DNA of 64,000 bases from Arthrobacter sp. UM1. GTDB lineage: Bacteria > Actinomycetota > Actinomycetes > Actinomycetales > Micrococcaceae. Position 1 is the first letter of the stretch; every line of letters begins with the position of its first letter. The position numbers and the translations under genes are program-made. The DNA is taken from the NCBI RefSeq assembly GCF_020483305.1, contig NZ_JACWAB010000001.1, forward strand, positions 124,001 through 188,000, written 5' to 3'. Shown here one piece after another: positions 59,876 to 63,253 of this stretch. The notes under the pieces are model-generated. The model worked only from the letters and a program-made list of their open reading frames with translations, made no database searches and was not told the DNA's origin.

Positions 59876-61345
59876 CTACGGCGTCGCGACGTCGTCGTGC
59901 TCGAAGGCCTCCGTGTCCACGTTGCGGCGGACGACGAACCATCCGGCGACGAGGAGGACGGCCACGGTCGGCACGCCGGCGAGGACCGCGAGGCGGGCGT
60001 GGAGGTCCTCGCTGAACGCGAGCATGACGAGGACCATCGCGAGGAACGCGAGGCCGAAGATGTTGAGCGCCGGGGCCCCGCGGAGCTTGAAGTCCGGGCG
60101 GTCCATCTCGCCGCGCTTGGCCTTGCGGACCATGGCCCAGTGGGAGAGCAGGATCATGGACCAGACGCCGATGATGCCGATGGTCGCGATCTCGAGGACG
60201 ATCTCGAACGCCTCGGACGGCCAGAAGTAGTTGATGGCGATGCCGACGAGCCCGAATCCGGCGGTCGTGAGGATGGCCGCGAACGGGACGTGGGTCTTGC
60301 TCATCTTCTGCAGGTAGCGCGGCGCGGTGCGGGCCATGCCCATCGAGTGCAGCACGCGGCCCGTGGAGTAGAGGCCCGAGTTCATCGAAGAGGCCACGGC
60401 GGAGATGAGGACGACGTTCATGATGTCCGCCATGTGCACCGGGCCGAGGTGGAAGCCCACGCGGTCGAGGACCGTGACGAAGGGCGATTCGCCGGCGGTG
60501 TACTGGCTCGAGGGCAGCAGGAGCGCGAGGAGCGCGATTGTGCCGATGTAGAACGTCAGGATGCGCCACAGGACCGAGCGGACGGCGGAGGGCATGACCT
60601 CCTTGGGGTTCTCCGACTCGCCGGCGGCCACGCCGATGAGCTCCATCGCGGCGAAGGAGAAGATGACGCCGGACATGAGGGTGAAGGCCGGGAGGACGCC
60701 GTTCGGGAAGAAGCCGGACTCGGTGATGTTGTGCAGGCCGGCGGTCGCGTGGTGTGCGGAGTCGCTGAGGTCGGCGCGCGTCACGATGAAGTAGATCGCC
60801 ACGAGCATGAAGGCGATGATGGTGGCCACCTTGATGATGGAGAACCAGAACTCCATCTCGCCGAAGATCTTCACGCCGATGAGGTTGACGGCGAGGACGA
60901 TGGCGAGCGCGATGAGCGCCAGGGCCCACCTGGGCATGGTGTCGCCGATCGCGGGCCAGAAGACGAGGAACCCGGCGATGGCCGTGGCGTCGGCCACGAG
61001 CGTGAACGCCCAGTTGAGGAAGTGGAACCAGCCTGCGGCGTAGGCGGCCGGCTCTCCGATGAACTCGCGGGAGTAGGCCACGAAGGCGCCCGGGGTGGGG
61101 CGGTGGAGGACCATCTCGCCGAGCGCGCGCACCACGATCATCGCGACGGCGCCGCAGATGGCGTAGGACAGGATGAGCGAGGGGCCCGCCGAGTGGAGGC
61201 GGCTGGCCGAGCCGACGAACAGGCCCGAGCCGATGGCGCCGCCGATGCCGATCATCTGGATGTGGCGGTTCTTGAGGTGCTTCGCGTAGCCGTCGCCGGC
61301 GGGGGGGTGCGTCTCCGCGGCCCGCTGTTGTGTCGTGTGAGCCAA
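59876..61345 (-). CDS. Amino-acid permease, APC superfamily (AAT type)
   Basis: 489 residues with about 12 transmembrane helices. The N-terminal motif HLKNRHIQMIGIGGAIGSGLFVGSASRLHSAGP and GALGEMVLHRPTPGAFVAYSREF are hallmarks of the CycA/GabP/AnsP group that takes up neutral or basic amino acids by proton symport. Substrate not determinable; D-Ala/Gly/D-Ser, GABA and Asn carriers share these motifs. I chose the TTG at 61345, which has CGAGGA about 10 nt upstream; no earlier ATG has a ribosome site. A promoter and terminator-like hairpin lie in its leader. Confidence 0.85.
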   Translation of the reverse strand: MAHTTQQRAAETHPPAGDGYAKHLKNRHIQMIGIGGAIGSGLFVGSASRLHSAGPSLILSYAICGAVAMIVVRALGEMVLHRPTPGAFVAYSREFIGEPAAYAAGWFHFLNWAFTLVADATAIAGFLVFWPAIGDTMPRWALALIALAIVLAVNLIGVKIFGEMEFWFSIIKVATIIAFMLVAIYFIVTRADLSDSAHHATAGLHNITESGFFPNGVLPAFTLMSGVIFSFAAMELIGVAAGESENPKEVMPSAVRSVLWRILTFYIGTIALLALLLPSSQYTAGESPFVTVLDRVGFHLGPVHMADIMNVVLISAVASSMNSGLYSTGRVLHSMGMARTAPRYLQKMSKTHVPFAAILTTAGFGLVGIAINYFWPSEAFEIVLEIATIGIIGVWSMILLSHWAMVRKAKRGEMDRPDFKLRGAPALNIFGLAFLAMVLVMLAFSEDLHARLAVLAGVPTVAVLLVAGWFVVRRNVDTEAFEHDDVATP

Positions 61346-61381
61346 GTCGAACGGTCCTCGTGTGGTGGTCGGATGGGACAG

Positions 61382-61441
61382 AAAAAGGCACCTGGAGTGG
61401 TGCCGCTCACTCACAGTACTGGCAATCACCCCTGCCACAAA
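61382..61441 (-). promoter_or_regulatory. Permease promoter with hairpin and T-tract at the transcript start
   Basis: Minus strand: TTTGTG (61441-61436), a 17-nt spacer and TACTGT (61418-61413), then a GGCACC-ACTCCA-GGTGCC hairpin (61404-61387) followed by TTTTT. The hairpin lies 37 nt before the TTG start and within a few bases of the predicted transcription start. Confidence 0.55.
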
Positions 61442-61540
61442 CGCGGGCGCCGCCGAGCGGGGTGCGGCTCACAGGTTTCCCGGTCTGGGTGTTCCGCGCC
61501 ACAGCGGGGAGAATTCAGGCCTCACGGGGCCGGGACGGGA

Positions 61541-61590
61541 AGAGCCCGCCGCATCACTCCGTGATGCAAATCACGGGTGCGGCGGGCTCT
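61541..61590 (-). terminator. Terminator of gnd
   Basis: A long inverted repeat (AGAGCCCGCCGCA 61541-61553 with TGCGGCGGGCTCT 61578-61590) enclosing a second hairpin CCGTGAT-GCAA-ATCACGG. Located 11 nt after the gnd stop in the direction of gnd transcription and followed by TCTTCCC. Confidence 0.75.
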
Positions 61591-61600
61591 CGCGGACGGA

Positions 61601-63049
61601 CTAGTGGGTGTCTGCCGCCTCCACCTCGCTGAGGTCCCCGCTCCACTGGGTGTGGAACGTCCCCTCTGCGTCCACGCGGCGGTACGTGTGGGCTCCGAAG
61701 AGGTCCCGGAGGCCCTGGGTGAGCGCAGCGGGAAGGCGCTCCGCCCGCAGGGCGTCGAAGTAGGAGAGGGAGGAGGACATGACCGGCGCGGGAACGCCCG
61801 TGAGGGCCGCATGGGCCACGATCCGCCGCCAGGACGGCAGCGCGTCCTCGAGGGCGCCCCGGAACTCCTCGGCGAGGAGGAGGCTGACGGGCTTGGCGCC
61901 GTCCGCGTACGTCTTCATGATCGTGTCCAGGAGGTCCGCGCGGATGATGCAGCCCGCGCGCCACAGTCCGGCGATCCGCGAGATGTCCAGGGTCCACCCG
62001 TACTCGTCCGCGGCCTTGAGGAGCATGTCGATGCCCTGGGCGTAGCTGACGAGCTTGGTGGCGTAGAGGGCCTTGCGGACGTCTTCGACGAACGCCTCGC
62101 GGTCCTCCGGCGCCACGTCCGGCTCGAAGGCGGAGCCGAAGTCCTTGTGGGCGGCGGCGCGCTGCTCAGGCTGGGAGGAGAGGCCGCGGGCGAAGACGGA
62201 CTCGGCGATGGCGGAGACCGGCGCTCCGATCTCGAGGCCCGAGATGACCGTCCAGCGGCCCGTGCCCTTCTGCCCGGCCGCGTCCACGATGACGTCGACG
62301 AGCGGCTTGCCCGTCTTGGCGTCCGTCTGCTTGAGGACGCGGGAGGTGATCTCGATGAGGTAGCTCTCCAGCTCGGTGGCGTTCCAGCGCTCGAAGACCT
62401 CGGCCTGCTCGGCGGGCTCGAGGCCGGCGGCCTGGCGCATGAGGTCGTACGACTCGCCGATGACCTGCATGTCCGCGTACTCGATACCGTTGTGGACCAT
62501 CTTGACGAAGTGCCCGGCGCCGTCCGTCCCCACCCAGGCGCAGCAGGGCTCTCCGCGGAAGTCCGCGGCGATCTTCTCCAGCATCGGTCCGAGGGAGCGG
62601 TAGGACTCCTCCGAGCCGCCCGGCATGATCGAGGGGCCGTTGAGAGCGCCCTCCTCGCCGCCGGAGACGCCGACGCCCACGAAGTGCAGCCCCTTCTCCG
62701 CGAGGGCGGCCTCGCGGCGGCGCGTGTCCGCGTAGTGGGAGTTGCCTGCGTCGATGACGATGTCTCCCTCGTCCAGCAGCGGAACGAGCTGCTCGATGAC
62801 CGCGTCCACCGGGGCTCCGGCCTTGACCATGACGAGGACCCGGCGGGGGCGCTCCAGCTTCTGGACGAGCTCTTCGAGGGAGTCGGCGCGGACGAAGTCC
62901 CCCTCGGAGCCGTGCTCCTCGAGGAGAGCGTCGGTGCGCTGCGGGCTGCGGTTGTGGACCGCCACCGTGTAGCCGTTGCGGGCGAAGTTCCGGGCCAGAT
63001 TGGCTCCCATGACCGCGAGGCCGGTGACGCCGATGTCCGCGAGTTTCAT
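61601..63049 (-). CDS. gnd: 6-phosphogluconate dehydrogenase, decarboxylating
   Basis: Oxidative pentose-phosphate enzyme making ribulose-5-phosphate, CO2 and reduced cofactor. 482 residues, the long (NADP-type) family. GVTGLAVMGANLARNFARNGYTVAVHNRS is the coenzyme motif; AGNSHYADTRRRE, FVGVGVSGGEEGALNGPSIMPGG and GHFVKMVHNGIEYADMQ (catalytic Lys) follow; the C-terminal helical domain has KGTGRWT. Ribosome site CAGGAG seven bases before ATG. Its pathway partner zwf is 25 kb away. Confidence 0.96.
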   Translation of the reverse strand: MKLADIGVTGLAVMGANLARNFARNGYTVAVHNRSPQRTDALLEEHGSEGDFVRADSLEELVQKLERPRRVLVMVKAGAPVDAVIEQLVPLLDEGDIVIDAGNSHYADTRRREAALAEKGLHFVGVGVSGGEEGALNGPSIMPGGSEESYRSLGPMLEKIAADFRGEPCCAWVGTDGAGHFVKMVHNGIEYADMQVIGESYDLMRQAAGLEPAEQAEVFERWNATELESYLIEITSRVLKQTDAKTGKPLVDVIVDAAGQKGTGRWTVISGLEIGAPVSAIAESVFARGLSSQPEQRAAAHKDFGSAFEPDVAPEDREAFVEDVRKALYATKLVSYAQGIDMLLKAADEYGWTLDISRIAGLWRAGCIIRADLLDTIMKTYADGAKPVSLLLAEEFRGALEDALPSWRRIVAHAALTGVPAPVMSSSLSYFDALRAERLPAALTQGLRDLFGAHTYRRVDAEGTFHTQWSGDLSEVEAADTH

Positions 63050-63165: not shown

Positions 63166-63238
63166 GGGCCTTTAGCTCAGCTGGTAGAGCGTCAGTCTTA
63201 CACACTGAATGTCATCGGTTCGATCCCGGTAGGGCCCA
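63166..63238 (+). tRNA. tRNA-Val (anticodon TAC)
   Basis: A 73-nt cloverleaf: acceptor GGGCCTT/AGGGCCC (one G-T pair), D-arm AGCTCAGCTGGTAGAGC, anticodon stem TCAGT/ACTGA with loop CTTACAC and anticodon TAC (reads GTA and GTG), T-arm CGGTTCGATCCCG. Discriminator A; CCA not encoded. The cysE stop codon lies 16 nt downstream on the other strand. Confidence 0.93.
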
Positions 63239-63253
63239 CTCCCACGGCTGCGC

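Follow-up and report, generated by a model that had tools for sequence, protein, structure and literature searches.

Does a short hairpin followed by a run of T, lying at the very beginning of a predicted permease transcript, act as a regulatory element, or is it a stem of the kind that a GC-rich genome supplies incidentally? The question arises near one end of the window, by which we mean the whole 64,000-nucleotide stretch of Arthrobacter sp. UM1 DNA analysed here. A preliminary description of this DNA had drawn attention to a GGCACC/GGTGCC stem and five Ts ahead of an amino-acid permease gene, and had suggested that they might attenuate transcription, stabilise the 5' end of the mRNA or give rise to a tiny RNA.

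The permease leader and its hairpin

The features on which the argument turns are the following, all on the minus strand.

59876..61345, minus strand: APC-family amino-acid permease (489 aa); closest to the NCBIfam model for L-asparagine permease, though below its cut-off
61345-61343, minus strand: TTG start codon of the permease
61359-61355, minus strand: GAGGA ribosome site, 9 nt upstream of the TTG
61382..61386, minus strand: run of five T (T5) behind the stem, followed by CTGTC
61387..61404, minus strand: stem-loop with a 6-bp stem, 5 of its pairs G-C (arms GGCACC, 61404-61399, and GGTGCC, 61392-61387), and a loop of 6 (ACTCCA, 61398-61393)
61343..61407, minus strand: predicted leader (about 62 nt) and TTG start codon
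61406..61407, minus strand: predicted transcription start, at about 61407, placed from the -10 element
61413..61418, minus strand: -10 element TACTGT, the sole TANNNT among the 255 nt that precede the start codon
61435..61440, minus strand: possible -35 element TTGTGG, spacer 16; a weak match, missed by the consensus scan
61541..61590, minus strand: strong inverted repeat (13 bp, with a 7-bp stem nested in it), just after gnd; no T-run
61601-63049, minus strand: gnd

The hairpin is real as sequence: both the stem and the five Ts are present on the minus strand, and the earlier observation is confirmed. The distance from hairpin to TTG, previously given as 37 nt, was right to within one base; by our count, 36 nt separate the T-run from the start codon.

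The gene product matches PF00324 (E 4.8e-105). Its best NCBIfam model, L-asparagine permease, reaches 482 bits where the cut-off is 773, too low a match to settle the substrate. The TTG is a plausible start, given the GAGGA upstream and the 18 residues which it would place before a GY[AS]K motif, as in the genus-mate L003; this agreement in N-terminal length assumes that the L003 gene starts at ATG 1460. We weighed in-frame GTG codons upstream of the TTG as alternative starts and did not adopt them, as no ribosome site was seen for them, and they are further disfavoured by the N-terminal length, equal to that of L003, which the TTG gives.

A consensus scan for sigma-70 promoters called none between 58000 and 64000, and the permease -10 box is thus weak by that yardstick. 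Its position is better supported by comparison. The TANNNT box lies 67 nt from the start codon in the window and 69 nt from it in each of two genus-mates, L003 and L033, and in the 255 nt that lead up to the start codon there is one such box in the window, one in L003 and two in L033 (the second at 56 nt). Because the distance is shared by three species, a transcription start at about 61407 and a leader of about 62 nt are credible, and with the box supported in this way the stem would begin at about +4, in agreement with its earlier placement near the predicted transcription start. On this anatomy, RNA polymerase would start at about 61407 and transcribe through the hairpin into the permease, while the stem would form in the 5' leader at about +4 to +21, leaving the ribosome site outside it. 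At most, such a stem might cause a weak pause, release a small fraction of transcripts early or shield the 5' end slightly.

Stem strength and chance expectation

In form, the leader hairpin resembles an intrinsic terminator, with a GC-rich stem-loop (6 bp) and an adjoining T-run (T5). We compared it with terminator-like sites of the same genome in a sample comprising the window and 20 stretches of 20 kb (L113-L132), together 464 kb at 70.6% GC. T-runs were defined as at least 5 T in 6 on either strand, and stems were counted up to 16 bp. Under these definitions the sample holds 85 T-runs, 12 of which stand behind a stem of at least 6 bp, with stem lengths of 6, 7, 9, 10, 10, 11, 12, 13, 13, 14, 16 and 16 bp. 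Ten of the 12 matches, at eight distinct places (two are read on both strands), have stems of 9 bp or more, a strength which the leader hairpin, at 6 bp, does not reach. Stems of 6-8 bp number only two, the leader hairpin itself and one in L122, with lengths of 6 and 7 bp respectively. Chance would supply between 1.13 (shuffled upstream sequence) and about 2.0 (random 45-mers) stems of 6-8 bp, and about 0.05 to 0.14 stems of 9 bp or more. The long-stem matches therefore form a clear class, and the leader hairpin falls in the class that chance fills.

These expectations are conditioned on the real T-runs, an approach adopted because a second-order Markov model makes too many of them. The estimate from that model, 3.9 six-bp terminator-like sites per 464 kb, was discarded on account of its roughly threefold over-production of T-runs (245 versus 85). 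A first-order simulation (7, 7 and 7 matches) was left unused, its own T-run over-production being unchecked. As an observation in its own right, T-runs are about three times rarer in the 464-kb sample than in the one second-order simulation and, given such genome-wide depletion, the T5 in the leader may not be neutral. Nearer the locus, between 58000 and 64000, terminator-like sites occur at chance, with two found against a shuffle mean of 1.5 (sd 1.3).

Predicted folding leads to a similar picture. The hairpin alone has a free energy of -10.4 kcal/mol and the first 30 nt of the leader one of -11.8 kcal/mol, the latter equalled by 0.2% of 500 shuffles. When the whole 62-nt leader is folded, 12.6% of shuffles fold as well and the excess vanishes; a 69-nt stretch at the leader gives a folding z of -1.2. 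Moreover, a value of -11.8 kcal/mol or better is attained by 13.6% of 4000 random 30-mers and by 14 of 84 candidate leader starts. Those candidates were chosen by a crude rule, combining TANNNT with a ribosome-site-like word and a 120-codon open frame, and some of them may be spurious. At 70.6% GC, stable folds are nothing unusual in this genome.

The leader in relatives and paralogues

Permease matches at an E of 1e-150 or better were found in 3 of the 149 family genomes searched, the window's own included, and the comparison of orthologues is consequently thin: it spans three genomes, those of the window species and the genus-mates L003 and L033, so that non-conservation rests on two close orthologues. 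Neither genus-mate leader holds the stem with its T-run, though both keep the -10 position. Near the matching place, the L003 leader reads GAGGCCTTTTCCTG, with four T and no stem of 5 bp or more ahead of them. In L033 the first 30 nt of the leader do contain a 6-bp stem (1119-1133, arms GGGCCA and TGGCCC), but what comes after it is ATTCCC, not a T-run. Given this recurrence in one of two genus-mates, a stem may be wanted in the first 30 nt. The DNA of the three leaders aligns poorly, with a mean column identity of 62%, and base pairs were not counted on that alignment.

The surroundings of the gene differ as well. Upstream of the permease lies gnd in the window and a different gene in each genus-mate, namely one with a galactosyltransferase domain match (Pfam) in L003 and one with no Pfam family at 1e-5 in L033. 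It would appear from these arrangements that the permease or its neighbours moved while the distance from -10 element to start codon stayed nearly constant. Right after the stop codon of its upstream gene, L033 also carries a 6-bp stem, AGAGGC/GCCTCT, followed by TTTT (1021-1040). This is a candidate short-stem terminator, in view of which terminators of this kind may be in use in the genus.

Two broader scans were made with looser settings. The first found a hairpin with a T-run upstream of none of the 62 actinobacterial relatives scanned (shuffled mean 0.6 matches), with the reservation that start codons were projected from the match and a hairpin in a longer leader could escape it. The 62, among them L033, were drawn from 80 loci by leaving out 17 proteobacterial loci and L043. 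The second recovered the window's own hairpin and found none in the leaders of the 11 paralogues scanned; it covered 14 of 19 loci, these being the 11 paralogues, the window's gene (L002) and the orthologues L003 and L004, without L013, L016, L018, L019 and L020. Its other match, in L004 at -144, lies past the stop codon of the preceding gene, outside the leader.

Since it is no stronger and no better conserved than chance hairpins in a GC-rich genome, the leader hairpin looks ordinary rather than like a new switch. With modest confidence, we favour the reading that it is incidental, a short, GC-rich stem which happens to precede five Ts and which most likely has no dedicated regulatory role. 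For genomes of some 70% GC there is a more general lesson, in that 6-bp hairpins come easily, and one that is followed by a T-run constitutes weak evidence unless conservation or end mapping accompanies it.

Possible roles of the stem and known counterparts

While the position, the anatomy and the promoter assignment given in the preliminary description stand, the last of them strengthened by comparison among species, its functional readings are not supported, the stem being short and the combination of stem and T-run not being kept in the genus-mates. Among such readings, a constitutive but weak intrinsic terminator or hairpin pause, which in some rounds of transcription would release an RNA of about 28 nt and keep basal permease mRNA low, seems to us unlikely. 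The GC-rich stem adjoined by TTTTTCTG speaks for it, and a precedent exists in lambda tR2, which, when set behind the T7 A1 promoter in a 38-bp transcription unit, is reported to terminate at +38 with an efficiency of 39% in vitro, sigma being retained in most complexes (PMC6978380); on this point the earlier doubt about terminators so near a promoter was overstated. Against it are the stem of 6 bp, where 10 of the 12 sampled terminator-like matches have 9 bp or more, the C which interrupts the tract after five T, an expected 3' end at about +28, shorter than the +38 of the precedent, and the absence of a stem plus T-run from both genus-mate leaders. That the site is a natural terminator acting within the first 30 nt, which would release the RNA of about 28 nt and recycle the polymerase, with early release in place of initiation setting the output of permease, we regard as very improbable; if true, it would lie unusually close to its promoter. 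A 5'-terminal stem might instead slow mRNA decay by hindering enzymes that attack the free 5' end, and the start of the stem within about 3 nt of the predicted 5' end would suit this, as would, a little, the 6-bp stem in the first 30 nt of the L033 leader (-10.9 kcal/mol). Folds of this order are common across the genome, and those of the genus-mates are often equalled by shuffles (8% and 34% for L033, 24% and 19% for L003, over 30 and 40 nt respectively), which leaves a protective function decidedly unlikely. Regulated attenuation in response to amino acids, the weakest of the functions proposed earlier, is barely credible. It would fit the gene class, an amino-acid permease, and the T-run behind the stem, but about 62 nt gives little room for a sensor, and the 62-nt leader holds no short open reading frame. 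The earlier statement that no leader peptide is visible holds when the leader is read through, the one start codon ahead of the TTG being GTG 61391, which opens a 669-codon frame overlapping the permease and has no visible ribosome site. Nor is there a strong alternative stem: a competing GAGTG/CACTC pairing reaches -4.8 against -10.4 kcal/mol, and the predicted transcription start falls downstream of its 5' arm (61412-61408). A search of 60800-62100 with Rfam returned two matches only, both far below gathering score and neither in the leader, which bears out the previous remark that no known riboswitch is present, and the stem with its T-run is kept neither in the genus-mates nor in the relatives and paralogues scanned.

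Two further readings concern the DNA or the neighbouring gene. The perfect GGCACC-N6-GGTGCC, at about +4 to +21 and without another exact match in the genome, could be a palindromic operator for a DNA-binding repressor that overlaps the transcription start. Among 16 places with one mismatch, one in L024 (1501-1518) precedes the beginning of a guanylate kinase gene by 30 nt, and one in L028 lies about 10 nt before an alcohol-dehydrogenase-like frame. The functions beside these two places are unrelated to that of the permease, and no regulon is therefore evident; moreover, 14 of the 16 places fall wholly or partly in coding-like frames (that of L028 included), one in a signal-recognition RNA gene (L031) and one, that of L024, in a leader. 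With up to two mismatches, the palindrome is no commoner in the window than chance predicts (10 occurrences against 10.1) and scarcer in the genome than a reversed-pattern control (372 versus 995), and it is absent from both genus-mate leaders. We accordingly give the operator very little credence. No more can be accorded to the idea that the hairpin serves as a back-up terminator, stopping transcripts that run on from gnd, which we hold to be highly doubtful. The gene does precede the permease on the same strand, about 200 nt upstream, and the 13-bp hairpin behind it has no T-run, but that hairpin is far stronger than the one in the leader, and a terminator placed behind the permease promoter would cut the permease mRNA too. 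The inverted repeat at 61541-61590 probably marks the end of the gnd transcript, as a U-poor terminator. A pairing of inverted repeats, one arm in the gnd hairpin and the other in the leader, was also considered and dropped, as it is unused in the predicted fold of a read-through transcript. Between gnd and a serine O-acetyltransferase gene there is a tRNA-Val (tac) at 63166-63239.

Set beside known systems, the hairpin that we read as incidental shares with intrinsic (rho-independent) terminators a GC-rich stem directly before a T-run, and differs from them in the shortness of that stem and in its location at the 5' end of a transcript instead of after a gene. Short RNAs in Mycobacterium tuberculosis are attributed for the most part to pausing of polymerase 200-500 nt downstream, with no strong consensus motif (PMC10937400), which, so described, is a different phenomenon from a promoter-proximal hairpin. 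The AlpA and phage Q antiterminators, which are stated to need a promoter binding element and a sigma-dependent pause (PMC9371919), act on a terminator downstream of a promoter, and the comparison with the permease leader is one of position alone. Term-seq in Streptomyces clavuligerus offers a likeness in its premature sites, which are termination-like and fall between transcription start and start codon; as defined there, they comprise only those at least 70 bp past the transcription start (PMC8269248), and the study is for that reason silent on sites as near as the leader hairpin. The lambda tR2 test terminator resembles the leader in that both its hairpin and its T-run lie in the first 40 nt of the RNA, and the two differ in that tR2 was placed on a synthetic template whose termination was measured in vitro (PMC6978380), whereas the permease leader is known from its sequence.
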